Positions 707-43,557 of a stretch of DNA of 64,000 bases are shown piece after piece; within the stretch, counting starts at the first letter, position 1, and every line of letters begins with the position of its first letter. The position numbers and the translations under genes were made by a program. Source of the stretch: Syntrophaceae bacterium. Its GTDB lineage: Bacteria > Desulfobacterota > Syntrophia > Syntrophales > PHBD01. The notes beneath the pieces were generated by a model that made no database searches, had not been told where the DNA came from, and was given only the letters and a program-made list of their open reading frames with translations. The DNA is taken from contig JABLXX010000001.1 of assembly GCA_013177825.1 (NCBI GenBank), positions 968,936 to 1,032,935 on the forward strand. The letters run 5' to 3'.

Positions 707-1060
707 ATGAAAAAAACGAGCTGCATCGTGGCAATGGCGTTTTTCTGTCTCCTGCTTGCCGGCATATCCGCAAACTCAGCCTGGGCTATGGGCTGTTCGG
801 ATCGGGAAGTCTCCTGCTGTATTGACGGCAAGCAATCGGAGACGGTGGCCAAGACGAAATTCAGCAGGTGCTGGAGCTGGAAAGACTTTGGATGCGTGCC
901 GTGCCATGGAGGGGGAAAATGGAGTTATGCCGCCGAATGGTGCAATGACAACTACGGTCAGTGCCAGGGGAAGTGCAAAGCGTGTTTTCATGATCCTGGT
1001 GATCGGTGTGTGCTGAAACTGACCTGCTGGGACAAGGACGGCCGGCAGACGTGTCAATGA
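707..1060 (+). CDS. Cys-rich small secreted protein, family A copy 1
   Basis: A 117-aa protein behind AAGGAGG. It has a Sec signal peptide (MKKTSC, hydrophobic stretch, SAWA cleavage site near residue 27) and a mature part of about 90 residues with 13 cysteines: GC, CC after six residues, CWSW, C-x2-C, WCN, then QC-x3-C-x2-C and three C-terminal cysteines. Conserved non-Cys blocks are CCIDG, CWSW and EWCN. There is no transmembrane segment after the signal and no lipobox. This is a disulfide-rich periplasmic or exported protein of unknown function; toxin, antimicrobial, adhesive or redox roles are all possible. It lies in a co-directional array just upstream of a TolC/MacAB-like export operon. 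Confidence 0.88.
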   Translation: MKKTSCIVAMAFFCLLLAGISANSAWAMGCSDREVSCCIDGKQSETVAKTKFSRCWSWKDFGCVPCHGGGKWSYAAEWCNDNYGQCQGKCKACFHDPGDRCVLKLTCWDKDGRQTCQ

Positions 1061-1082
1061 TCCGAAGAAGGGAGGATGAGCC

Positions 1083-1463
1083 ATGAGGGAAGCGGGCTGC
1101 ATTATGGCGATGGCGGTTTGCTTTATCCTGCTTGCCGATGCATCCATAAACTCAAAGGAGGCTGTCGGCTGTCAGGATAAGAAGGTCTCCTGCTGTATCG
1201 ACGGCGATGAATCGAAGACGGTGGCCAAGACCAAATTCACCATGTGCTGGAGTTGGAGCAAGGCTGAATGTCGGCCGTGTAATGGCGAAGGGCAATGGGC
1301 TTATATTTCTCTATGGTGCAATGTCAACTACATCAATGAATGCCACGGAACATGCCAGGGGTGCTTCAAAGTGCAATATCCCTTTTTTATGACACCGCAG
1401 GCTTCAGAGGGAGATGACGGGATCTGCTGCGTTGATAATGAAGGCCATAAGCGTTGTCGATGA
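1083..1463 (+). CDS. Cys-rich small secreted protein, family A copy 2
   Basis: A 126-aa paralogue of the gene at 707, starting 22 bases after it behind GGGAGG. The N-terminus is a signal peptide with a weaker cleavage site (SINSKEA before VGC). The mature part again has 13 cysteines and the blocks CCIDG, CWSW and WCN. It differs from its siblings by about ten extra residues between the C-x3-C-x2-C cluster and the C-terminus (around YPFFMTPQASEGDD), and two C-terminal cysteines have become adjacent (ICC). This is the most divergent complete copy, consistent with diversification after duplication. It is the only family A copy here not preceded by a B gene or B remnant. Function unknown. Confidence 0.85.
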   Translation: MREAGCIMAMAVCFILLADASINSKEAVGCQDKKVSCCIDGDESKTVAKTKFTMCWSWSKAECRPCNGEGQWAYISLWCNVNYINECHGTCQGCFKVQYPFFMTPQASEGDDGICCVDNEGHKRCR

Positions 1464-1559
1464 TTCGGGCTTCAACCACGGGAGGCAATGGAGTCGGGAG
1501 GTAAACCGTCACTGAAGAGGGTGATCAGGATCAACATTCATTTCGAGGAGGAGCGATTG

Positions 1560-1955
1560 ATGAGAGAGCTGTCGCGTGTATGCATTGCATTGGTCATCGC
1601 ATGTGCCTTTCTGGCAGGCCAGGCCTTTGCCGGTGAGGCTAAGGATAAGGCATCCGGAAATCAGAGGACCGTGATTTACAGTTTTCTGGGCGCAGTGACG
1701 GGGATGGATGCGGGGGAAAAGACGATCACCATCAATGCCGTTGCGGACAGGGAAGATTACCTGACGGAAGGTGACATGCCGTTCCGGGAGTTCAGTGCCG
1801 AGGGGAAAGAGATCACCTTGGATATCTCGAAGGTGATGTTTCTGGGGGTGGAAGACATCAAAGGAATCAAGGCACTCCAACTCGTCAGGGTCGGTTATGA
1901 CAAGAAGGGCGAAGTGCATGTTGCTCACACGGTGTTGGTTCTGTCAAAGCGGTAG
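1560..1955 (+). CDS. Small secreted protein, family B copy 2
   Basis: A 131-aa close paralogue of 153-554; most positions are the same by eye, including the blocks GDMPFREFSA, QLVRVGYDK and AHTVLVL. The ATG at 1560 is preferred over an in-frame ATG at 1488 because GAGGAG precedes it and a Sec signal peptide then begins at once (cleavage after AFA near residue 23). There is no cysteine in the mature part. It lies between family A copies 2 and 3, repeating the B-then-A order of the first unit. Function unknown. Confidence 0.85.
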   Translation: MRELSRVCIALVIACAFLAGQAFAGEAKDKASGNQRTVIYSFLGAVTGMDAGEKTITINAVADREDYLTEGDMPFREFSAEGKEITLDISKVMFLGVEDIKGIKALQLVRVGYDKKGEVHVAHTVLVLSKR

Positions 1956-2008
1956 CTGTGAAGCCGGGCTCGGGCATTCCGGGGCCTGTACACGCTGTGA
2001 ATCAAGCC

Positions 2009-2116
2009 GTTCATGATCCGAAGTTTTGCCGCAGCTATGCCTCCAGCGAAGTGGTTTACCGCTTCGTGGGGGATAAATCCTGATGGTGAAATCGGTGATG
2101 ACAAGGAGGATGAGAT
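2009..2116 (+). promoter_or_regulatory. Duplicated leader of family A gene, copy 3, with hairpin
   Basis: Homologous to the leaders before 707 and 2754. Here the hairpin is strongest: CGAAGTGG (2048-2055), loop TTTA, CCGCTTCG (2060-2067), eight pairs with one G-U. The ribosome-binding site AAGGAGG lies about 40 bases downstream of it. The structure holds although its sequence differs from the other copies. Confidence 0.45.
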
Positions 2117-2476
2117 ATGAAGAAAACCGGCTGCGTCGTAGCGATAGCTGTTATCTTTGTCCTGCTGGCCGGCATATCGGCAAACCCTGCCTATGCAGTC
2201 GGCTGCAAAAACCACTATATCGCCTGCTGCATTGATGGCAAGTCGAAGAAGATGGTGGCGGATACTTACTTCACCATGTGTTGGAGTTGGAAGTCGGCTA
2301 AGTGCAAACCCTGTCACGGCGGAGGGAAATGGAGTTGGTTTGCCGAGTGGTGTAACGAAAACTATGCCCAATGCGAGGGAAATTGCCAGGGGTGCTGGTG
2401 GGATCAAGACGTTGATTGTCTGCGAGGATTTCGATGCTATGACAAACATGGGAAAAATACGTGTCATTGGCCGTGA
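2117..2476 (+). CDS. Cys-rich small secreted protein, family A copy 3
   Basis: A 119-aa paralogue behind AAGGAGG. It has a Sec signal peptide (MKKTGC..., AYA cleavage near residue 27) and a mature domain with 13 cysteines in the family arrangement: GC, ACCIDG, CWSW, C-x2-C, EWCN, C-x3-C-x2-C and three near the C-terminus. The C-terminus is extended by HWP after the last cysteine. It is strongly basic in the first half of the mature part (KSKKMV) compared with its siblings. It is paired with the family B gene just upstream. Function unknown. Confidence 0.87.
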   Translation: MKKTGCVVAIAVIFVLLAGISANPAYAVGCKNHYIACCIDGKSKKMVADTYFTMCWSWKSAKCKPCHGGGKWSWFAEWCNENYAQCEGNCQGCWWDQDVDCLRGFRCYDKHGKNTCHWP

Positions 2477-2487
2477 TTGATGAATAG

Positions 2488-2612
2488 CGGCATTCCCTGG
2501 GGCAACACACAAGGGCGGCCTGATTCATCAGCGGTGGTTGTGACAAGAAGGCACCTGTTTGGCTGGGAGGTCCTCGTTCTCTTGGAGAGACGATTGTGAA
2601 ACGAGTGGGGGC
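2488..2612 (+). pseudogene. Decayed remnant of a third family B gene
   Basis: The non-coding stretch between family A copies 3 and 4 aligns by eye with the 3' end of the family B genes. AACA-CAAGGG-CC-G-TT-TCAG-G-TGGTT-TGAC (2504-2544) matches the codons for the SNIKGLQLVRVGYD segment of copy 1 with small indels. The match continues more weakly through the old stop codon region (TGTGAA, GGGC). The 5' half and signal peptide are gone. It shows that copy 4 of family A was once also preceded by a B gene. Confidence 0.5.
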
Positions 2613-2650
2613 GGGCTTTCTTTGGTGGGACCACACCCCAAAAGGCAGGC

Positions 2651-2753
2651 TTTTCGTGATTCAAGATGATGTTACGGTACCCTTGGTTGAGAAGTGCTCC
2701 TTTTCACTGGGAGACCTTTGGTGGTGAATTCGAGAAAACAAGGAGGAAGCAGC
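2651..2753 (+). promoter_or_regulatory. Duplicated leader of family A gene, copy 4, with hairpin
   Basis: Third copy of the leader. The hairpin core is GTG-CTCCTTTT-CAC (2694-2707) in place of GCG...CGC at 645-658: a C-G pair replaced by U-A at the same place. It is followed by GGGAGACC, GGTGGTGAA and the ribosome-binding site AAGGAGG before ATG 2754. Confidence 0.45.
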
Positions 2754-3101
2754 ATGAAAAAATCGGGCTGCACCGTGATCATGGCGGTTTTCTTTCTCCT
2801 GATTGTGGGTATATCCGCAAACCCGGCTTGTGCCCTCGACTGTGGGGAGTTGGAAGTCCTCTGCTGTATTGATGGAAAATTATCGCATACCATTGCCAAG
2901 ACAACATTCAGCATGTGCTGGAGTTGGAGCAAGTTTGAATGTGTGCCGTGTCATGGGGGGCATAAATTTTCGTATCTTGCGAAGTGGTGTAACGAGAACA
3001 ACGACCAATGCGAAGGGAAATGCAGAGGGTGTTATTCGCATTTTCGTTATTGCTATGGACGAATCTGTGTGGATACAGACGGAAAAGAATATTGCCAATG
3101 A
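2754..3101 (+). CDS. Cys-rich small secreted protein, family A copy 4
   Basis: A 115-aa protein. ATG 2754 is preferred to an upstream in-frame ATG at 2694, which lies inside the duplicated leader; AAGGAGG precedes 2754. Sec signal peptide MKKSGC... with cleavage around residue 27 (NPACA). The mature part has the family's 13 cysteines and the blocks CCIDG, CWSW, C-x2-C and KWCNEN. It is the last member of the array; the TolC-like gene of the export operon starts 227 bases downstream in the same direction. Function unknown. Confidence 0.87.
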   Translation: MKKSGCTVIMAVFFLLIVGISANPACALDCGELEVLCCIDGKLSHTIAKTTFSMCWSWSKFECVPCHGGHKFSYLAKWCNENNDQCEGKCRGCYSHFRYCYGRICVDTDGKEYCQ

Positions 3102-3209: not shown

Positions 3210-3328
3210 AACACGGCGTTTTCCGGTCATATCCCGAAAAAAAGGAAAAGGTCAGTCTTCTCGTGGGCTCAAGCTTTTTTTTATAAACATGAGAAATGGG
3301 CAGGAAACATGACCTTCAAGCGAGGATA

Positions 3329-4903
3329 ATGGAATCACGCCTGTCGTTATCGACATCTTCGCGAATCAGCATCCTGTGCCTTGTCATTTTTCTCTTCGTA
3401 TTCTTTGCCTCTTCGGTTCCGGCGCTCTGCGAAGAGAAACAGGAGATTCCAAGCGTACAACAGGGATTGAAGAAACTGACCCTGTCCGATTGTGTTTTTC
3501 TTGCCTTGCAGAACAACGTTTCCATCCAGACCGCTTACCTGGACAGAATCTCCCAACGGATGGAGCTCCGCGTCGCCGAGGACAAGTTTGTTCCCCAGCC
3601 GAGCCTCAGCTTTTCGACCCGCGCCACGTCCACCTACAATACGGACGGCACCCGGACCCGGGCATCCAATCAGGACGGGTTGTTTGCAACGACCTTGAAC
3701 CTTCCCACGGGCGGATCCGTAATCTTCAGCTGGGACAACCCGGCGACGAAAGCGGACATCGGCCAGGACTATGGCTACAGCTCAGGCTGGAGCGTCCAGT
3801 TCATCCAGCCACTCCTGAAAAATGCCGGCGTGGATGTCGCCACGCAGTCCATCCGGCAGGCCAGGGTGGCCGAGGAACAGTACATCCTCGACCTGAAAGA
3901 CACGCTGGCCACCACGATCACGACGACCATCACAGACTACCGGGCCTATGTGTCGGCCCTGCGCAGTTACGACATTCAAGCCAAGGGGCTGGAGACGGCC
4001 CGCCGAACCCTGGAGACGAACCAGGCGCTCATCGATGCCGGGCGCATGGCCCAGACGGAAATTCTCCAGGCGGAGAACGACGTGGCCAATCGTGAGTTGA
4101 GCGTCATAACCGCCAGGAACGACGTCGACTCGGCGCGGCTTACTCTTCTCCAGGTCCTCAACCTGGACAAGAACACAGACTTCCTGCCCGTTGAAGAAGG
4201 AGAGCAGTTTGTTCCTCCTCCATCCCTGGAAGAAGCCATTGCCGTGGCCCTGAAAAACCGTTCCGATTACATCAAGGCATTGCAAAACCTGGAGCTGGCC
4301 AAGCTGGACCTGGCCGTCAACAAACGAAATCTTCTCTGGGATCTATCGCTGGTGACAAACGTCGGACGGACCGGGACAGGCGATACCTACCGGACGGTGC
4401 TGGCGGACCAGCAGATAAGGAAAAGCGACTGGGATGTCTGGCTTCAGCTCAACATTCCCCTGAGAGACCTGCAATCGGAAAGCAGTTATGTCGCCGCAAA
4501 AGTGGCCCGCGAAAAGGCGGGCATCAACCTCAAGAAACTGGTGAGCGACATTGAAATCGATGTCCAGAATAAAATCAGGAATATCGACGTAAATTACAGG
4601 AGCTATGTGCTTGCGAAAAAGGGGCGGGAGCTTTCGGAGCGAAAACTGGAAATCGAACGGGAAAAACTGCGGCTGGGACGAACGACCAACTTCCAGCTTG
4701 TGTCTTTTCAGAACGACGTCCTCGATCAGCAGACGATGGAACTGCTGGCCCTGATCACGTATCTCAACTCCCTGACGGACCTGGATCAGTCGCTGGGGGT
4801 TACGCTCGACCGCTGGAGCATCAGCGTCAAGCGCGAGGATCAAAATGTCAGGCTGCCGGAGGACCGGAAGCAGGAAGTCAACGAGAAACTGAAGGCGAAA
4901 TAA
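3329..4903 (+). CDS. TolC-family outer membrane efflux protein
   Basis: A 524-aa protein from ATG 3329, chosen because AGCGAGG precedes it and a signal peptide follows directly (hydrophobic ILCLVIFLFVFF, ending about residue 35). An in-frame ATG at 3296 is the alternative. The body shows the two-fold repeat of long amphipathic helices typical of TolC/OEP channels, including LTLSDCVFLALQNN near the start and EEAIAVALKNRSDY in the middle, each opening a helical repeat. The trimer would form an outer membrane channel and periplasmic tunnel. It is the first gene of an operon with adaptor, ATPase and permease (gap of 13 bases to the next gene), so it is a dedicated channel for that pump. Confidence 0.9.
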   Translation: MESRLSLSTSSRISILCLVIFLFVFFASSVPALCEEKQEIPSVQQGLKKLTLSDCVFLALQNNVSIQTAYLDRISQRMELRVAEDKFVPQPSLSFSTRATSTYNTDGTRTRASNQDGLFATTLNLPTGGSVIFSWDNPATKADIGQDYGYSSGWSVQFIQPLLKNAGVDVATQSIRQARVAEEQYILDLKDTLATTITTTITDYRAYVSALRSYDIQAKGLETARRTLETNQALIDAGRMAQTEILQAENDVANRELSVITARNDVDSARLTLLQVLNLDKNTDFLPVEEGEQFVPPPSLEEAIAVALKNRSDYIKALQNLELAKLDLAVNKRNLLWDLSLVTNVGRTGTGDTYRTVLADQQIRKSDWDVWLQLNIPLRDLQSESSYVAAKVAREKAGINLKKLVSDIEIDVQNKIRNIDVNYRSYVLAKKGRELSERKLEIEREKLRLGRTTNFQLVSFQNDVLDQQTMELLALITYLNSLTDLDQSLGVTLDRWSISVKREDQNVRLPEDRKQEVNEKLKAK

Positions 4904-4916
4904 TCAAGGGACAGCC

Positions 4917-6701
4917 ATGAACCAGGATCCGATCATCTACAGAAACATTCTGGAAAACATGACCGACGGGGTCATGACCGTTTCGCTCGACGGCCGCATC
5001 ATGACGTTCAACGAGGCGGCGGAACGGATTCTGGACCTCCGTGCCGAGGATGTCCTCGGCCGGTCGATGAGCGAAGTGTTCCTCGGAAGGGAAGGGAACG
5101 ATGCCTTCAACCAGGCCATCCTGGACGCCGTTTACGATGAGGCGGTGACTCAGAACGGCATCGTCCTGTATACGGCCGGGGAAAAGCGCATCGTTCTTTC
5201 TGTCACGACCTCTTTTCTCGGGTCCGATGAGACGGGACAAAAAAAGAAGGCTGCCGTCATTGCGGTCTTCAGCGACCGGACGGAAGTGGAGGCTCTTCGG
5301 GAGACGGAGCACGACCTCACGGAGGAGATCAAGGCGAAGCACAGGGAGCTGCAGACGTCCTATTCCGAACTGGAGGAGTCCAACACAAGTCTCAAGGCCG
5401 CCCTGAAAAAAGTGCAGATGATCCGCATTGCCGCGACGGCACTGGTGCTTCTTCTCTTCCTGTCCATCGGGATCCTGACGTGGATAAAAGGCACACCGGG
5501 AAGGTCCGGGCAGTCTTCAACCACAGATTCGCAAGCGGGCGCAGTGAAGACGTACAAGGTGGCACTGCAACCCCTTGTCGACAAGATCTCTCTCCGGGGT
5601 ACTCTCAAACCGATCCAGGTCGTGAACGTGACGAGCCCCTTCGCGGGCACGGTCACGGAAAAGCTTTTCGAATACGGCCAGTCCGTCACCAGGGGGCAGC
5701 TTCTTATGCGCCTCGATACCAGAGAAATCGAATCGAAATGCCGCGAAGCGAAATCAGCTTTCATCAAGGCAAATGAAAAAAGAAAGGAAATGAAGGACTG
5801 GAAGAACACGGATGAAATGGTCAAGGCGATGCGCTCCCTGGACAAGGCGAAGAGATCCTATGAAGAAACGGAAACTCTTTTCAAGAAAGGCATCGTGTCG
5901 GCCGACGAGTACAACAACGAAAAGAACAATTACGAGAACGAGCTCCTGACGTACAAGACCACAAAGGCCAAAGGCGAGGGTGATAACGTAACCCTGGCAA
6001 AACTCGACTATTACAATGCAAGAGCGAAACTCGCCGATCTTGAAAATCAGCTGGGAAAAGCCAATGTCCTCGCTCCGGTGTCCGGAACGGTCATCCTCAT
6101 GGACACCGTGGGGGATAAGGACAGGAAAGGAAAGGCCGTCGAAAAGGGGACTTCTTTCGGCGAGGGGGAGATCATGCTGGCCGTCGGTGACACGACCGGC
6201 CTGTCGGTTTCCACCGAAGTGGACGAGATCGAGGTGACGAAGATCAAGAAGGGTCAGCAGGCCATCATCACGGGAGACGCTTTCCCGGATGTGACCCTCA
6301 AGGGAAGTGTCGATCACATTTCGTCCCAGGCGAACGTCAAGGGAGGGGAAGGAGGAGCGAAGAAAGCGGCTACCTTCGAAATTCTGATCCGGGTGGACAG
6401 GCTTCTCCCGGAAGTGGCGGACAAGATCCGTCTCGGCATGTCCGCCAATCTGTCCATCGAGATCCTGAACAAGCCCGACGGCATCCTGGTGCCCATCGGG
6501 GCCGTGCAGACGGATGGGGCGGATCGCTACGTCATGTTGAAGGAGGCGGGAAAGCGGGAGGCGAAGCGGGTGAACGTGAAGACGGGCATTACGACTCTCG
6601 ACTCCGTGGAGATTTTGCAGGGATTGAAAATCGGCGATGAAGTCCTGGTAAGGGAGGAAGCGGTCCGGAATGTCCATGCTGAGGACAGTGAACATCCATA
6701 A
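4917..6701 (+). CDS. PAS-domain / HlyD-MacA-type membrane-fusion protein hybrid
   Basis: A 594-aa protein with an unusual order of parts. Residues about 5-125 are a PAS domain (IYRNILENMTDGVMTVSLDG, FNEAAERILDL, VLGRSMSEVF). Residues about 126-167 are a charged coiled coil. One transmembrane helix follows (about 169-190, AATALVLLLFLSIGILTWI). The rest is a standard periplasmic adaptor: lipoyl half-motif (VTSPFAGTV), long alpha-hairpin (about 275-375), second lipoyl half (NVLAPVSGTV near 381), beta-barrel and membrane-proximal domain. MacA-type adaptors normally have only a short cytoplasmic tail, so the PAS domain would sit in the cytoplasm next to the ATPase. It may tune transport to a ligand or redox signal (inference). 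The 3' end overlaps the ATPase gene by 32 bases. Confidence 0.9.
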   Translation: MNQDPIIYRNILENMTDGVMTVSLDGRIMTFNEAAERILDLRAEDVLGRSMSEVFLGREGNDAFNQAILDAVYDEAVTQNGIVLYTAGEKRIVLSVTTSFLGSDETGQKKKAAVIAVFSDRTEVEALRETEHDLTEEIKAKHRELQTSYSELEESNTSLKAALKKVQMIRIAATALVLLLFLSIGILTWIKGTPGRSGQSSTTDSQAGAVKTYKVALQPLVDKISLRGTLKPIQVVNVTSPFAGTVTEKLFEYGQSVTRGQLLMRLDTREIESKCREAKSAFIKANEKRKEMKDWKNTDEMVKAMRSLDKAKRSYEETETLFKKGIVSADEYNNEKNNYENELLTYKTTKAKGEGDNVTLAKLDYYNARAKLADLENQLGKANVLAPVSGTVILMDTVGDKDRKGKAVEKGTSFGEGEIMLAVGDTTGLSVSTEVDEIEVTKIKKGQQAIITGDAFPDVTLKGSVDHISSQANVKGGEGGAKKAATFEILIRVDRLLPEVADKIRLGMSANLSIEILNKPDGILVPIGAVQTDGADRYVMLKEAGKREAKRVNVKTGITTLDSVEILQGLKIGDEVLVREEAVRNVHAEDSEHP

Positions 6702-7365
6702 GACGTATCCGGTCGGTCCCACGGAAGTGAACGTCCTCAAGGGCATTTCCCTGGAAGTCGAGAAGGGGGAATTCCTGTCCATCGTGGGAGCGTCGGGCAG
6801 CGGCAAGTCCACGCTGATGCATATTCTCGGTCTTCTCGAACAGCCGACATCGGGAGAGTATTTTTTCGAGGATGCCCGGATCCGGTACGAGGACGACCGC
6901 GAGCTCTCCATTCTCCGCAACCGGAAGATCGGATTCGTGTTCCAGCAGTATTGCCTCCTGCAGCGGCTGACGGCCCTGGATAACGTGGGAATTCCCCTCA
7001 TTTACCGGGGGATGGGCAAACCGGAAATCCGGGAGCGCTCCATGGCCTACCTACAGAAAGTAGAAGTAGCGGATCGGGCGCATCACCGGCCGAACGAGAT
7101 GTCCGGGGGACAGCAGCAACGCGTGGCCATCGCCCGGGCCCTGGTGGGAAGTCCGGCCCTGATCCTCGCCGACGAGCCCACGGGTGCCCTGGACAGCCGG
7201 ACCGGCCAGGAGATCATGGATCTCTTCCGAAAGCTCAACGAAGAGGAAGGAATCACGATTATCGTCATCACCCACGATCTCAAGATCGCCGCTCAATGCC
7301 GGCGCAGCATAGAGATCACCGACGGGCTCGTCACCCCTCCGGCGGTTGACGGGAATCCTCATTGA
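6670..7365 (+). CDS. MacB/LolD-type ABC transporter ATPase
   Basis: A 231-aa nucleotide-binding subunit. Walker A is GASGSGKST, the Q-loop region reads FVFQQYCLL, the signature is MSGGQQQRVAIARAL, and Walker B is LILADEPTGALD with the H-loop in VITHD. The length and the GALDSRTGQEIMDLF stretch place it with the MacB/LolD/FtsE group. It overlaps the adaptor gene by 32 bases and precedes the permease by 39 bases. E. coli MacB is one polypeptide with ATPase and membrane domain; here they are separate genes. It would power periplasm-to-outside export through the TolC-like channel. Confidence 0.95.
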   Translation: MSMLRTVNIHKTYPVGPTEVNVLKGISLEVEKGEFLSIVGASGSGKSTLMHILGLLEQPTSGEYFFEDARIRYEDDRELSILRNRKIGFVFQQYCLLQRLTALDNVGIPLIYRGMGKPEIRERSMAYLQKVEVADRAHHRPNEMSGGQQQRVAIARALVGSPALILADEPTGALDSRTGQEIMDLFRKLNEEEGITIIVITHDLKIAAQCRRSIEITDGLVTPPAVDGNPH

Positions 7366-7404
7366 ATATCCGGGCGCCGCGGGGCCTCCGGAATCAAGGA
7401 CAAC

Positions 7405-8577
7405 ATGATCCTGAAAGCAAACATTTCCGAAGCGTTTACAAGCCTTGCAAACGCCCGACAGCGGACGATCCTTGCCATTATCGGCATCGTCATCGGCATC
7501 GGATCCGTCATCGGCATGGTCTCCATCGGCTCCATTGCGGAAAACGAGGCCCTCAAACAGTTCAAGGACATGGGTGTGGACGTCGTCATGGTGAGGCTGA
7601 CGGAGAACAGTCCATCGGCAAACGTGACCCTACGGGACATCACGGCCCTGAAAGAAAAGGAGAGCTCGATCCTCGATGTCGCGCCTTACCTGCGATCCAG
7701 CGGCACATTCAGCATCGGCAAGAAGAGCATCTACCTGGAGGAGATGGGTGTGACCTCCAGCTTCTTCGACATGAACAAGATCCGGCTGGCGGAGGGGCGA
7801 TTCATCTCGGACCTCGACGAGAACCGCTATTTCTGTGTCATCGGGAAGGAAACGGCGGCTTTCCTCCGGGGGATCGGATTGAATCCTCTCCTTGGCAGTC
7901 AGTTTCCTCTCGGAAACAGGATTTTCACGATTGTCGGTGTTCTCGACAACGTCTCGGATGGAGGGATGAGGCCTTACGGAGTCAACAGCTCCGTGATCAT
8001 GCCCATTACCACGGCCGGGCGGTTCTTCGAGAAAAGCGACATCGACAGCTTTCTTGCCCTGGTCGGGAACACCGTCTCCCCGGCCCAGGCCAAGGTGGAT
8101 ATCCAGAATTACTTCCGGATGAAATCGCGGGACCTCAAAGTCAGGGTCACCACGGCGGAAGAGCTGATCGCCAACATGAAGAAGCAGATGCAGATCTTCT
8201 CGCTGCTTCTCGGCGCCATCGGCAGCATCTCCCTGATCGTGGGAGGCATCGGCGTCATGAACGTCATGCTCATCTCGGTTACGGAGCGCCGGATGGAGAT
8301 CGGTCTCCGGCGGGCGCTGGGAGCCCAGCAGGGCGACATCCAGAGCCAGTTCATCATGGAGGCATTGGTTCTGTGCCTCGTCGGCGGCGTGATCGGGATT
8401 GTCCTCGGAGTCATCGTCTCCTTCGTTTTTGCAAAGGTCTCCCACTGGGAATTCCTGATCTCGTACGGATCCATTATTCTCGGTTTCGGCGTGGCCGCGG
8501 CGGTGGGCGTTTTTTTCGGCTATTATCCGGCGCGCTCCGCCGCCAGGCTGGACCCCATCAAGGCCTTGCGTTCCTGA
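7405..8577 (+). CDS. MacB-type ABC transporter permease (FtsX-like)
   Basis: A 390-aa membrane protein with the MacB layout: one N-terminal transmembrane helix (about 22-42, ILAIIGIVIGIGSVIGMVSI), a large periplasmic domain (about 50-265), then three C-terminal helices. The FtsX-family block GGIGVMNVMLISVTERRMEIGLRRALGA follows the second helix. MacB-type pumps do not carry substrate across the inner membrane; they drive export of periplasmic substrates (macrolides, the Cys-rich enterotoxin STII, lipopeptides) through TolC. That fits a substrate already secreted by Sec, such as the Cys-rich proteins encoded upstream. Last gene of the operon. Confidence 0.93.
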   Translation: MILKANISEAFTSLANARQRTILAIIGIVIGIGSVIGMVSIGSIAENEALKQFKDMGVDVVMVRLTENSPSANVTLRDITALKEKESSILDVAPYLRSSGTFSIGKKSIYLEEMGVTSSFFDMNKIRLAEGRFISDLDENRYFCVIGKETAAFLRGIGLNPLLGSQFPLGNRIFTIVGVLDNVSDGGMRPYGVNSSVIMPITTAGRFFEKSDIDSFLALVGNTVSPAQAKVDIQNYFRMKSRDLKVRVTTAEELIANMKKQMQIFSLLLGAIGSISLIVGGIGVMNVMLISVTERRMEIGLRRALGAQQGDIQSQFIMEALVLCLVGGVIGIVLGVIVSFVFAKVSHWEFLISYGSIILGFGVAAAVGVFFGYYPARSAARLDPIKALRS

Positions 8578-38584: not shown

Positions 38585-38989
38585 TCATTTCCACCCAAAC
38601 GTGCAGGTATGGGTGGTGTTTCCATTTTCGTCCTTGCTTTCTACAACACCTTTCCCCAAAACATCATAGACCTCAACCCACCCGTGTTTTGCGACATCGA
38701 CTCGACAAACACCTTTACTGCTCCAGGTAAAGACGTCTACGTACCCTCCCTTCCCTGGTCGGCATTCATGGTTCCCTGCATTGATCTTCCAGTCATTATG
38801 GCAGAACCAGCCGCAGTAAAAGTTTACGATGATCTCTCTCGCATCTGTTTTGTTGTAAAAGCAGGATGCCTCGGCGTCTTTGGGGATCATCATGGTTCCC
38901 GTCATCAGGAAGATGACGATGATCGCCGCCCACATGGTTCCGTTCTCCGGCAACCCCCGACGGACAGTTTTTGTCAATGCATTCTTCAT
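38585..38989 (-). CDS. Small secreted Cys-rich protein, family C copy 1
   Basis: A 134-aa protein. The N-terminus is a Sec signal peptide with a long basic n-region (about 18 residues), a hydrophobic core (MWAAIIVIFLMTGTMMI) and cleavage at AEA-S, leaving a mature domain of about 93 residues that starts SCFYNKTD. Six cysteines. Family blocks: CGWFCHNDWKINAG, CRPGKGG, VAKHGWVEV and ESKDENGN-x4-C-x-F. No lipobox (no hydrophobic residue at -3) and no further membrane segment. Function unknown. It is the last gene of the seven-copy array, before the terminator, and its ribosome-binding site GGAGAGTCGAGTC deviates most from the family leader. Confidence 0.87.
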   Translation of the reverse strand: MKNALTKTVRRGLPENGTMWAAIIVIFLMTGTMMIPKDAEASCFYNKTDAREIIVNFYCGWFCHNDWKINAGNHECRPGKGGYVDVFTWSSKGVCRVDVAKHGWVEVYDVLGKGVVESKDENGNTTHTCTFGWK

Positions 38990-39134
38990 GACTCGACTCT
39001 CCTTTTCGCTGCCTTCGTTCCGAGTCGGACAGATTCAGTCCGTTCAACCGAACGGAGACAATCTTGAAAGCCAGCATCCATACGAGGGAACATCTTTTGC
39101 CCGCTTGGACGTGATTTCAAGCGGGTATCAAAAT

Positions 39135-39536
39135 CTACCAATCCAATACGCATGTCTGAGTCGTGTTTCCATTATCGTCTTTGCTTTCAATAACGGCTTT
39201 ACTCGAAACATCATGGACCTCGACCCAACCGTGCTTTGCAACATCGACTTGACAATACCCCTGACTGCTGGAGGCGAAGACGTGCACGAACCCTCCCTTG
39301 CCCGGTCGGCATTCGTGTCCCCCTGCATTAATCTTCCAGTCGTTATGGCAGAACCAACCGCAGTAGAAGTTAAACGTTACATCCTTTTTGTCTGTTTTGT
39401 TGTAAAAGCAGGATGCAGCGGAGTCCTTGGGAAGAATCATGGTTCCCGTTAACAGGGTGATGACGAAGACAGCCGTCCACATTGTTCCTGTCCTTCGCAA
39501 TCCGCCGCCGACTGTTTTCGGAAAGATGTTTTTCAT
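39135..39536 (-). CDS. Small secreted Cys-rich protein, family C copy 2
   Basis: A 133-aa paralogue. ATG 39536 follows the conserved leader AAGGAGGATCGAGCC; a longer in-frame start at 39599 would add 21 residues inside the upstream gene. Signal peptide with cleavage near SAA-S; the mature domain starts SCFYNKTD with six cysteines and no CC pair, like copy 1, its closest relative by eye. Blocks CGWFCHNDWKINAGG, CRPGKGG, KHGWVEV and SKDDNGN are intact. It starts only 25 bases after the stop of copy 3, the tightest spacing in the array, so the two are likely co-translated. Function unknown. Confidence 0.87.
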   Translation of the reverse strand: MKNIFPKTVGGGLRRTGTMWTAVFVITLLTGTMILPKDSAASCFYNKTDKKDVTFNFYCGWFCHNDWKINAGGHECRPGKGGFVHVFASSSQGYCQVDVAKHGWVEVHDVSSKAVIESKDDNGNTTQTCVLDW

Positions 39537-39561
39537 GGCTCGATCCTCCTTATTCCGGATC

Positions 39562-39987
39562 TCATGGGGTAGGGGTCGGCTTATCTTTATGCCAGTCAAA
39601 TGTGCATGTCCGTGTTATGTTTCCATTGTCGTCTTTGCTTACGACAACGCCCTTGTCTCCGGCATGAGTGACTTCAACCCAGCCGTGTTTTGCAACCTCG
39701 ATGTCGCAACTGTGCAATTTTTCAGAAGGCCTGATGGTTGCGATTCCTCCCTTTCCCGGCCTGCACTTGTGCTGATCGGGGTTGATCGTCCACTTGTTCC
39801 CGCAGAACCAGCCGCAATTGAAGGATACTGCGATATCGCCGTCCGCTTTGTTGTAGAAGCAGCATGCCTTGGCGTCTCTAGGGATCATCATGGCACCTGT
39901 TATCAGGGAGACGGCGATGACCGCCACCCACATCGTTCCTTTCATTCGCAACCCTCGACTCATTGCTTTCAATAATATGTTTTTCAT
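39562..39987 (-). CDS. Small secreted Cys-rich protein, family C copy 3
   Basis: A 141-aa paralogue behind GAGGAGGATCGAGCC. Signal peptide (MWVAVIAVSLITGAMMI core, cleavage AKA-C); the mature domain begins CCFYNKAD and has seven cysteines. Blocks CGWFCGNKWTIN, CRPGKGG, VAKHGWVEV and SKDDNGN are present. It is the only copy with a C-terminal tail beyond the FDW ending (HKDKPTPTP), which could be a linker or processing remnant. Function unknown. Confidence 0.87.
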   Translation of the reverse strand: MKNILLKAMSRGLRMKGTMWVAVIAVSLITGAMMIPRDAKACCFYNKADGDIAVSFNCGWFCGNKWTINPDQHKCRPGKGGIATIRPSEKLHSCDIEVAKHGWVEVTHAGDKGVVVSKDDNGNITRTCTFDWHKDKPTPTP

Positions 39988-40221
39988 GGCTCGATCCTCC
40001 TCTTTCGTTCCGCGTCAGCCAAATTCAATTCATTCGGCTTTTCGTTGATATTCTCATATCCGGCATCGACGTTGGTGGGTATGCATACCCGTTTTGTCGA
40101 GATGACCGGCAACTGTTAACCGTTCTTTGAAAAGAGGTTCTGGCTTTGAATCGATCTTGAATGAAAAGGTCAAATATCTTGCCCGCCGGACGCTCAATGG
40201 CGGTTTTGATTGCCAGGAGAT

Positions 40222-40265
40222 TGGAGACGGCCACGGCCCCGCCTTATGCCTCGTGGCCGTCTCCA
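40222..40265. other. Perfect 14-bp stem-loop inside the family C array
   Basis: TGGAGACGGCCACG (40222-40235), 16-base loop, CGTGGCCGTCTCCA (40252-40265), all fourteen pairs perfect. It lies 36 bases past the stop of copy 4 in a 313-base gap. There is no T-run on either strand, so it is not a standard intrinsic terminator; an mRNA-stability hairpin, a processing site or a REP-like repeat are possible. The rest of the gap (39988-40221) holds only the degenerate leader of copy 3. Confidence 0.5.
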
Positions 40266-40300
40266 CAACATCAGTGTACTCGGGAGGCCTGACAGCTGTT

Positions 40301-40720
40301 CTACTGAGAAAAAACCCAATCGAAATAGCATTTGTGGACGACGACACCATCGGCATTTTTGCTTTCCACTCGACCCTCACCCCCTGGAGGATAGGCATGG
40401 GTGATGTCAACCCAGCCATGCTTTTCAACAGATACATCGCAGGAAGCGACATTTCCGATGCGCCTGACGTTCGCAACCCCTCCTTTTCCCGGCCGGCACT
40501 TGTGTTCCCCGGGTTCGAGAGTCCAGTTGTTTCCACAGAACCAGCCGCAGTTGAAGGAAATATGCATCTTGCCGTCACTCTTGTTGTAGAAGCAGCATGC
40601 CTCGGAGTCCCTGGAAATCAGTACAGTTGCCGCGATCAATACAATCGCAAAGGTAACCATCCACATCGCTCCTCTGTTACCCAGCCGTTCGCAGATTGGT
40701 TTCAACCATTCATGCTTCAT
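40301..40720 (-). CDS. Small secreted Cys-rich protein, family C copy 4
   Basis: A 139-aa paralogue. ATG 40720 follows the conserved leader AAGGAGGATCGAACC; an in-frame start at 40780 would add 20 residues. Signal peptide core MWMVTFAIVLIAATVLI, cleavage SEA-C; mature start CCFYNKSD; seven cysteines. Blocks CGWFCGNNWTLEPGEH, CRPGKGG and EKHGWVDI are intact. The segment after HGWVDI is longer than in siblings (THAYPPGGEGRV), and SKDDNGN reads SKNADGV, so this loop is variable. C-terminal extension VFSQ. Function unknown. Confidence 0.87.
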   Translation of the reverse strand: MKHEWLKPICERLGNRGAMWMVTFAIVLIAATVLISRDSEACCFYNKSDGKMHISFNCGWFCGNNWTLEPGEHKCRPGKGGVANVRRIGNVASCDVSVEKHGWVDITHAYPPGGEGRVESKNADGVVVHKCYFDWVFSQ

Positions 40721-40845
40721 GGTTCGATCCTCCTTTCCAGTAATTTCACTCCGTGTCAGACAGCCCGCTCTGCTCGACAAGACGGAGGTGTTTTGCAGCC
40801 CGGCCTCGGTAAATGGCCTGTGTTATTGAGTAGCGTCACAGTTCC

Positions 40846-41250
40846 TTATTTGCCCCAGTCGAACTCGCACACATTGGTCGTGTTTCCATTTTCATCTTTG
40901 CTTTCCGCAACGCCTTTATCCTGGACATGATAGACGTTGACCCAGCCGTGTTTTGCAACCGGCAGAAGCTCACAAAAATCTTTTTTATTATGGTAGAGGG
41001 TGACGCATCCTTCCTTTCCCGGCCGGCATTTATGTTCCCCAGGGCTAAGATCCCAGACGTTCCAGCAGAATACGCCGCAGGAAAACTTGACCGTGATCTT
41101 GTCATCCGCTGAGTTGTAAAAGCAGCACGCCTCCGCTCTCACAGGGATCGTCAGATATCCCGCGATCAGTGCAACAGCGACGATAACCGTCCACATCGCT
41201 CTCTTCTCCGGCATCCACCAACAAACCGGTTTCGACAATCTGTTCATCAT
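40846..41250 (-). CDS. Small secreted Cys-rich protein, family C copy 5
   Basis: A 134-aa paralogue behind GGAGGATCGAGCC. Signal peptide core MWTVIVAVALIAGYLTI, cleavage AEA-C; mature start CCFYNSAD. Eight cysteines: the usual set plus an extra one in RPGKEGC, where the others have CRPGKGG. It shares CGVFCWN with copies 6 and 7 rather than CGWFC of copies 1-4, which splits the array into two subgroups. Blocks VAKHGWVNV and SKDENGN are present. Function unknown. Confidence 0.87.
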   Translation of the reverse strand: MMNRLSKPVCWWMPEKRAMWTVIVAVALIAGYLTIPVRAEACCFYNSADDKITVKFSCGVFCWNVWDLSPGEHKCRPGKEGCVTLYHNKKDFCELLPVAKHGWVNVYHVQDKGVAESKDENGNTTNVCEFDWGK

Positions 41251-41383
41251 GGCTCGATCCTCCCTTCCGCTGATTCATTTGCCGGTAGACAATCATCCTG
41301 TCTGCAGCGCACAATGTTGCCCTCGGAATCCGGCATCGGCAAATCGTCAGCTCTACTGAATAATGCCGCCTCGTTCTTAATCA

Positions 41384-41803
41384 TCACCAGTCAAAGGTGC
41401 AGGTCTCGATCGTGTTTCCGTTTTCATCTTTGTTTTCCACAACGCCCTTGTTTATGCCCTGAGCCGAAACATGATGGACCTCGATCCAGCCGTGTTTCTT
41501 AACCCAGATGTAATTGCATGCATGGTAACCATGTTTGGATTTCGAGATCGACGTGGCGTTTCCTCCCTTTCCCGGCCGGCAGGCGTGATCTCCGGGTTCA
41601 ATATCCCAGTCGTTCCAGCAGAATACGCCGCAGCTAAAAGTAACGTGAATCTTCGTTTCGGTATGGTTGTAGAAGCAACATGCTTCGGTGTTCTTTGGAA
41701 ACATTAAGGTTCCTGTGATCAAAGCCATGGCGATGAACGCCATCAACATCACTCCCTTGTTTCGGGGCCCTCTGCAGACTGGATTCAACAATGTGCCCTT
41801 CAT
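41384..41803 (-). CDS. Small secreted Cys-rich protein, family C copy 6
   Basis: A 139-aa paralogue behind AAGGAGGATTGGGCC. Signal peptide core MLMAFIAMALITGTLMF, cleavage TEA-C; mature start CCFYNHTE; seven cysteines. CGVFCWNDWDIEPGDH and CRPGKGG are followed by a longer, Ser/Lys/His-rich variable segment (SISKSKHGYHAC) and KKHGWIEV. The loop before NKDENGN carries extra residues (SAQGIN). The divergence is concentrated in these two loops, while the framework is constant. Function unknown. Confidence 0.87.
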   Translation of the reverse strand: MKGTLLNPVCRGPRNKGVMLMAFIAMALITGTLMFPKNTEACCFYNHTETKIHVTFSCGVFCWNDWDIEPGDHACRPGKGGNATSISKSKHGYHACNYIWVKKHGWIEVHHVSAQGINKGVVENKDENGNTIETCTFDW

Positions 41804-41844
41804 GGCCCAATCCTCCTTTGCTGTGCTGGTGTCTTCTGTCAGAT

Positions 41845-41904
41845 AAACTCAATCTCCGTGCTGCGATTATGGAATAGATCAATTCATGCCGGTGGCAATG
41901 CTTG
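41845..41904. repeat. Duplicated intergenic block, copy 1 (family C array)
   Basis: A 60-base block upstream (minus strand) of copy 6. It matches 42356-42415 upstream of copy 7 at 52 of 60 positions, counted by eye. On the minus strand both contain TTGCC(A/G), 16 bases, TATTC(C/T), a possible promoter. More degenerate relatives occur upstream of copies 5, 3 and 1. The duplication unit of the array therefore includes the upstream region. Confidence 0.6.
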
Positions 41905-41910
41905 TTCATC

Positions 41911-42315
41911 TCATTTCACCCAGTCGAACGTACAGGAGTCGATGACGTTGGCGTTATCATCTTTGCTTAGGACGAGGCCTTTGTTTCCTGTACGGGTTAC
42001 TTCAACCCAACCATGTTTCTTGACGGTAGAGATATCGCATTTCTGTCCTGCCCTCCTGATCGTCGCGTCTCCCCCTTTTCCCGGGCGACACTTATGCTCC
42101 CCAGGCTCTAAATACCACGTATTTCCACAGAAAACCCCGCAACTGAATTCTGCATCGATGCCCCCCTTGTCCACCAGGTTATAGAAGCAGCATGCTTCGC
42201 TGACCCGCGGCGCGAGTCCGATTCCGACAACAATGGCCATGACAATAATTGTCGCCCACACCCATTGCTTTCTTTCCAACCGGCTGTCGTTGTTTGTCAT
42301 CAACATGTTCTTCAT
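41911..42315 (-). CDS. Small secreted Cys-rich protein, family C copy 7 (first in transcription)
   Basis: A 134-aa paralogue behind AAGGAGGATTGAGCC. The signal peptide is the most diverged (MKNMLMTNNDSRLERKQW, core VWATIIVMAIVVGIGL, cleavage SEA-C). Mature start CCFYNLVDKG; seven cysteines; CGVFCGNTWYLEPGEH, CRPGKGG, KKHGWVEV and SKDDNAN. It is the promoter-proximal member of the array. Upstream lie the duplicated block at 42356-42415 and the stop of the flavodoxin-type lipoprotein gene. Function unknown. Confidence 0.87.
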   Translation of the reverse strand: MKNMLMTNNDSRLERKQWVWATIIVMAIVVGIGLAPRVSEACCFYNLVDKGGIDAEFSCGVFCGNTWYLEPGEHKCRPGKGGDATIRRAGQKCDISTVKKHGWVEVTRTGNKGLVLSKDDNANVIDSCTFDWVK

Positions 42316-42564: not shown

Positions 42565-43557
42565 CTATCCCTGAAATTCCTTGGGCTCTTGGATACGAAT
42601 ATCGTATTTCCGTAGAAAATCCTTGAAGCCGTAGACTTTTTTCCCCATGAATACCATGTCGATTGCCTGGGCCGGGCAGTTGTTGACGCAGCCCATGCAG
42701 GCGATGCAGCGGTCCTGGTCCACTCTGTGCTGTGCAGGGTGTGTGGCGCCGACCGGGCATACCCGGACGCAGGTGCCGCAGCCGATGCATTTCGCCGCGT
42801 CGATGGTATGCCGGGAGATCAAGAGTTTCGTGAATTTCATCATCACGGATCCCTTGAAGACGTCGCCGTAATGAAACTCCTTCCGCACGGGGGAGATGGT
42901 GCTGCCGCTCCGGACCGTCTGCAGTGCCTGTTTCGCGAACTCCCGGACCTGTGTGTAGGTCTCCTCGTTCGGCCGGTCCCTGTATTTGAGGATGCGCGCC
43001 TCTTTCCCGGACGACCAGGTCGGGGCGAAGGTGGACATGTTGCCGAATGCGGCGATCCCGATCGGGACGCCTCCCTTCGCACACAGAAGCTGGAGCGTGG
43101 AGAAGGCGGTGTTGTACTGGTTGTCCCCGGGGCCGCCGAAGGTGGAATAGGCCGCCACAGGAATGCCCCGAATATCAGGAATGGACGCAAGCCAGGATCG
43201 GACGTTACCCGGCGTGTCCAGGTAATAGACTGGTGTTCCCAGGACGATGAGATCGTAGTCCTTCATCGCGGATGGATCGAACCGGCGGATATCCAGCGCC
43301 GTCACCGCCAGTCCGTTCTGCTCGAGAACCTTTCCGATCAGCCTGCCGTTCCGCTCCGTGTGTCCTGCCTGACTGTACCAGAGGACGAGTGCCGTTTTCG
43401 GCTGTGAGGATTTCAGCGGGATTTTTGAATCGGGAATGGTTTCCCTCGTGCATCCGGCCGCGCCGGCGGCTGCCAGGGTCCCTGCGGACCCGATCAGGAA
43501 CGTTCTGCGCGTGCAGAAGCCCGTGGCCGGCAGGTCGCGTTTGTCTCCCTGCTTCAT
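42565..43557 (-). CDS. Predicted Tat-exported lipoprotein with flavodoxin and 2x[4Fe-4S] ferredoxin domains
   Basis: A 330-aa protein. The N-terminus has a twin-arginine motif (TRRTFLIG, R17-R18), an Ala-rich hydrophobic stretch and a lipobox-like AGAAGC with C36. Residues about 55-200 form a flavodoxin-like domain (LVLWYSQAGHTERN, VLGTPVYYLDTPGNV, YSTFGGPGDNQYN). The C-terminus has two clusters, CIGCGTCVRVCP and CIACMGCVNNCP. The domain order matches the cytoplasmic EFR1/iron-sulfur flavoprotein group, but export as a folded, cofactor-loaded lipoprotein is unusual. It could move electrons on the outer face of the inner membrane. Confidence 0.87.
   Translation of the reverse strand: MKQGDKRDLPATGFCTRRTFLIGSAGTLAAAGAAGCTRETIPDSKIPLKSSQPKTALVLWYSQAGHTERNGRLIGKVLEQNGLAVTALDIRRFDPSAMKDYDLIVLGTPVYYLDTPGNVRSWLASIPDIRGIPVAAYSTFGGPGDNQYNTAFSTLQLLCAKGGVPIGIAAFGNMSTFAPTWSSGKEARILKYRDRPNEETYTQVREFAKQALQTVRSGSTISPVRKEFHYGDVFKGSVMMKFTKLLISRHTIDAAKCIGCGTCVRVCPVGATHPAQHRVDQDRCIACMGCVNNCPAQAIDMVFMGKKVYGFKDFLRKYDIRIQEPKEFQG

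Follow-up and report, generated by a model that had tools for sequence, protein, structure and literature searches.

The window, by which we mean the whole 64,000-nt stretch of DNA analyzed here, contained seven complete genes in tandem for small secreted proteins of 133–141 aa (38585–42315, minus strand). The host is a free-living, uncultured bacterium of the Desulfobacterota. These genes represent a new protein family, so far uncatalogued, whose members are secreted beta-sandwiches predicted to be locked by disulfides; the genomic pattern is of a known kind.

A search with one copy against its own 4.24-Mb genome returned exactly the other six, at E values of 1e-42 to 1e-50, and nothing comparable was found in this genome beyond these six paralogs. 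The array proteins, searched by sequence as single copies and as profiles, matched nothing in Pfam, NCBIfam, PHROG and PDB, and relatives were absent from the plasmids, phages and viral contigs searched. The initial annotation had described a seven-copy tandem array of secreted cysteine-rich proteins of a family that it did not recognize. The array was confirmed, and no known family was found for it; the arrangement of the fold is a common one. The stop codons flagged in some copies in whole-genome searches were an artefact of the aligned query overrunning the true stop.

Genes and proteins of the array

The first gene lies at the 42315 end and the last at the 38585 end, all on the minus strand: C1 (41911–42315, 134 aa), C2 (41384–41803, 139 aa), C3 (40846–41250, 134 aa), C4 (40301–40720, 139 aa), C5 (39562–39987, 141 aa; the reference for residue numbering), C6 (39135–39536, 133 aa) and C7 (38585–38989, 134 aa). 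The intergenic spacing ranged from 25 to 313 nt. Each copy starts with ATG (at 40720 in C4, for example) and has its own Shine-Dalgarno sequence, GGAGG, 7–9 nt upstream; that of C7 is a weaker GGAGA. An upstream TTG (39599) was considered as the start of C6 and rejected: the Shine-Dalgarno sequence sits in the 25-nt spacer after C5, and the ATG at 39536 was chosen.

Inspection and folding revealed a putative intrinsic terminator after C7 (38505–38547, minus strand), 40–80 nt past the stop codon. Its folding z-score was only -0.9, and its 12-nt loop kept it out of a simple terminator scan. The presence of a 14-bp stem followed by U6 after the last stop suggested that the seven genes probably form a single operon. 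A promoter scan at the array gave nothing above the shuffled background. The G+C content of the array was 0.51, compared with 0.63 in the rest of the window. The other secreted arrays in the genomes compared are likewise lower in G+C than their surroundings.

The proteins begin with a long n-region that is followed by a hydrophobic stretch. A cleavage site of the A-x-A type lies immediately before CCFYN or SCFYN and leaves a mature part of about 95 aa. Judged from these sequence features, the proteins are predicted to be Sec-exported and processed by signal peptidase I. A lipoprotein reading was rejected. In C6, C7 and the sister-species copy C0, the mature part starts with Ser (residue 42), and no lipobox precedes it; the preceding residues are of the A-x-A signal peptidase I type.

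Twenty-nine columns were invariant among the seven copies. They include six cysteines, as the initial annotation had counted, and the motifs CFYN, F-x-C-G-x-F-C-x-N-x-W, H-x-CRPGK-x-G and KHGW. Additional cysteines occur at residue 42 in C1–C5 and at residue 82 in C3 alone. The longer blocks that had been listed as shared vary in places: C3 has CRPGKEG for CRPGKGG, KHGWVEV varies at its end (WIEV, WVNV, WVDI), and SKDDNGN appears also as SKDDNAN, NKDENGN and SKNADGV. The best-conserved non-cysteine residues are H73, R76, K79, K100, H101 and W103.

In an alignment of 29 relatives, one of them cut at a contig end, the cysteines of the pairs 43/75, 58/62 and 94/128 were present or lost together, as judged by eye. 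This joint retention and loss predicts three disulfides, 43–75, 58–62 and 94–128. The proteins are probably oxidized in the periplasm and exported.

AlphaFold2, with 15 copies as the alignment, modeled the mature domain as nine strands (pLDDT 93.6, pTM 0.85). It is predicted with high confidence to be a complete, self-contained beta-sandwich of the transthyretin-type arrangement, and it lacks a clear relative. In the model, the segment before KHGW, which varies among the copies, forms the exposed beta5-beta6 hairpin and the beginning of beta6. The conserved non-cysteine residues cluster in motifs distant from the hairpin tip.

Divergence of the copies and of the hairpin

The searches returned one other genome of the genus (G001; its contig is HGW-Deltaproteobacteria-19 in L025). 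It contained counterparts of all seven copies in unchanged order and, at the upstream end, one additional copy, C0. In a tree, each of the seven copies paired with its positional counterpart in this sister species. This showed that the duplications predate the species split and that the array has not been homogenized as a whole. The divergence of the seven paralogs is old, with pairwise dS from about 0.7 to saturation. In the sister species, C6 and C7 share an N-to-H change at residue 69, which may point to conversion within this pair.

The surroundings of the array are collinear in the two species, at approximately 94 percent identity along a stretch of more than 30 kb, between 12 kb and 42.5 kb of the window. 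The extent of this identity led us to reject a recently exchanged block of low divergence. The copy numbers differ by exactly one unit, which is missing from the window 3' of a shared leader. The leader of C0 agrees at 95 percent with the 285 nt upstream of C1 in the window, and the signal segment is nearly identical in C0 and C1. The difference of one whole unit is best explained by recombination in the leader or signal segment, with gain and loss alike possible. The 313-nt gap in the array held no convincing open frame common to both species.

To compare rates within the proteins, we used the segment before KHGW, which the initial annotation had designated beforehand and for which the exact borders were set in this analysis. 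It covers residues 86–97 in C5 (39697–39732, minus strand) and C4 (40430–40465, minus strand), and residues 86–100 in C2 (41504–41548, minus strand), in which the hairpin is the longest of the array. Between the window and the sister species, omega was 0.31 overall for the mature parts and 0.11–0.18 for the genes flanking the array. The hairpin segment showed 15 nonsynonymous and 3 synonymous changes, and the remaining mature part 26 and 31. A codon model gave an omega of 1.25 for the hairpin versus 0.28 elsewhere (likelihood ratio test, p=3.6e-5), and this was stable to the choice of borders.

C2 and C4 dominated the signal, with a hairpin omega of about 2.5. C4 showed the highest nonsynonymous change of all copies; its hairpin had 7 nonsynonymous and 1 synonymous changes, which hit seven of the eight codons 90–97 and spared only that of the invariant Cys94. 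The changes in the hairpin were point changes, mostly private to single copies. Gene conversion as the origin of the changes in C2 and C4 was unsupported by these private changes, and no conversion tracts were seen.

The proposal of a constant frame with two variable loops was thus upheld for the loop before HGW. The loop before DDNGN (residues 107–112) had an omega of 0.27 and was constrained like the framework. As for diversifying selection, the faster change of the hairpin was established, but an omega above 1 was not shown (p=0.48 against 1, from one species pair). Since omega was not significantly greater than 1, relaxed constraint explains the faster hairpin evolution equally well.

Relatives and genomic context

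Profile searches for relatives covered the phylum of the host. Diverged copies were found elsewhere in the same two genomes, two and four, respectively (G000:C4 and G001:C72; hhalign 95 percent), and one relative each in G097 and G133, which represent two other families of the order. Across the class, relatives occurred in 4 of 155 genomes. Several more came from a distant family within the phylum, in which 6 of 20 genomes had them. The distribution of the distant relatives in the phylum is patchy. Two further distant matches (L008 and L011) had no family-like open frame and were discarded.

One genome of this distant Desulfobacterota family provided a second tandem array (G206, C4:565221-570935; L053, 7219–13000). 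Of the 13 small secreted proteins that it encodes, 12 belong to a diverged YAIYN type, and the remaining one is of the window type. Sequence comparison makes homology of the YAIYN type to the array family no more than probable (hhalign 56 percent; best BLAST E 5e-4); the one certain relative in the same array supports it. Tandem expansion of this protein family occurred more than once.

The neighbors of the array in the window are a permease-like membrane protein with no Pfam match and a flavodoxin-ferredoxin protein, and they give no pointer to its role. The latter gene, directly upstream of the array (42565–43557, minus strand), combines a flavodoxin domain and two 4Fe-4S motifs with a Tat-like leader. 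No gene for a target, ligand, partner or receptor was visible beside the array, and neither MacB nor a LytTR two-component system adjoins it.

Such genes were seen next to relatives. In G206 and in a genome of another genus (G538), a LytTR response regulator and a dCache-PAS sensor kinase are encoded next to the relatives. The two kinases are 68 percent identical, and among the 14 genomes checked no others contained the kinase. This neighborhood is consistent with induced rather than housekeeping expression. In G097, the relative adjoins a MacB gene, with 58 percent identity to the MacB encoded at 7405–8577 of the window.

MacAB-TolC exports the enterotoxin STII, which is Sec-secreted and disulfide-bonded (PMC5985334). 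By this analogy, an exporter of the MacAB-TolC type is a plausible candidate route across the outer membrane for proteins of the array type. The link is weak because MacB was near relatives at only two of about nine testable loci, against a background of 5–10 MacB genes per genome, and it was chosen post hoc.

The window also contains another tandem array (707–3101, plus strand), of four secreted cysteine-rich proteins with the motif VSCCIDGK ... CWSW ... PCHGGGKWSY. The two copies tested had no Pfam match. Two copies of another secreted protein (117–554 and 1488–1955) are interspersed with its genes. Directly after this array, on the same strand, are genes for TolC, an adaptor, an ABC ATPase and MacB (3296–8577); possibly they constitute a dedicated exporter. 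The HlyD-type periplasmic adaptor (4917–6701, plus strand) carries an N-terminal PAS domain, an unusual fusion.

Possible roles and comparison with known systems

By inference, the array proteins would cross the outer membrane and bind, with a role in interaction. Our leading interpretation, held tentatively, is that the array is a diversified panel for extracellular recognition or inhibition. The paralogs would be Sec-exported, disulfide-locked sandwiches of the transthyretin type, with the cysteine framework kept by purifying selection. The beta5-beta6 hairpin before KHGW would be free or driven to change and act as the contact surface, so that every copy may recognize its own variant of a target, extracellular or in the envelope. 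Candidate targets would be a protein or glycan of another microbe, or an enzyme to be inhibited. The operon would then be a small specificity panel, able to gain or lose single units by recombination in the nearly identical leader and signal segments.

Ranked below this is a plausible though less likely reading, in which the copies are redundant proteins of the periplasm or envelope that were amplified for dose. The hairpin would merely drift, and the charged residues near CRPGKGG and KHGW would be the working site. The hairpin omega, not significantly above 1, is in accord with this, as are the clustering of H73, R76, K79, K100, H101 and W103 away from the hairpin tip and the lack of any sign of export past the periplasm. 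The nonsynonymous changes of C2 and C4, on the other hand, are concentrated in the hairpin, and the seven paralogs are old and have been maintained as separate lineages, unlike a recent amplification for dose.

Small, oxidized, variable proteins secreted from a tandem array could also be antagonistic, bacteriocin-like toxins with a target range set by the hairpin, and the export of STII by MacAB-TolC and the MacB gene adjoining one relative fit such a role. We consider it improbable: no immunity-like gene was found between or directly beside the copies, and no toxin family was matched. Equally improbable are structural subunits of an extracellular lattice, fiber or biofilm matrix, with the copies at different positions of the assembly. 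The extra unpaired cysteine 42 in C1–C5 could serve for crosslinking, and the strict positional orthology of the copies is in accord with such subunits, but the model is a complete, self-contained sandwich and the identified neighbors include no assembly or chaperone-usher genes.

The results define an uncatalogued secreted family that has expanded in tandem repeatedly and independently in the Desulfobacterota; it has one variable hairpin on a scaffold for which three disulfides are predicted. This small, stable scaffold lends itself to expression and testing.

Structural comparison of the models gave many transthyretin-type sandwiches, all at Z 5–8, including SPH15, the PepT2 extracellular domain, cytolysin domain 4, TssJ, transthyretin (Z 5.6–5.9 with the second model) and 5-hydroxyisourate hydrolase. 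Foldseek against viral structures gave weak matches at most. These matches of predicted models reflect a common arrangement, from which neither kinship nor function follows. The membrane-binding domain 4 of cholesterol-dependent cytolysins is a similar sandwich (Z ~7, first model), but the array proteins have neither the pore-forming domains nor a sequence match, and cytolysins were absent from the list for the second model. TssJ1 resembles the modeled sandwich (second model: Z 6.2, 72 residues, 2.2 A), and TssJ contacts its partner through a protruding, poorly conserved loop (PMC3213119); the array proteins differ in having no lipobox, no helical insert and no sequence match.

The first model aligned best with SPH15 (PDB 6g7g; Z 8.0, 89 residues, 2.8 A). 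SPH15 was absent from the list for the second, better model, and a Z of about 8 may reflect no more than a widespread arrangement rather than homology to SPH. The plant S-protein homologues (PF05938) are, like the array proteins as predicted, small, secreted, disulfide-bonded beta-sandwiches of multigene families, and the loops of Papaver PrsS carry its activity and probably its specificity (PMC13033167). PrsS/SPH proteins have four conserved cysteines (PMC13033167), whereas the bacterial proteins have six. PF05938 was not matched in an hmmscan of all seven copies; searched against the whole own genome, it did not detect the array and gave a lone, unrelated sub-threshold match elsewhere. We regard as quite unlikely a bacterial recognition counterpart of the plant S-proteins, a sensor-controlled panel of secreted ligands of the transthyretin-type sandwich, expandable unit by unit, in which the beta5-beta6 hairpin of each copy would match a partner variant on neighboring cells.

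Should the hairpin be a surface that confers specificity, then uncultured bacteria of the subsurface have a set of binding proteins, acting outside the cell, of a kind hitherto studied mainly in plants and pathogens. The array belongs to another sequence family than the tandem secreted cysteine-rich proteins of those organisms, comes from a free-living bacterium and has no known receptor, but it shares with them a fast-evolving surface on a conserved frame.
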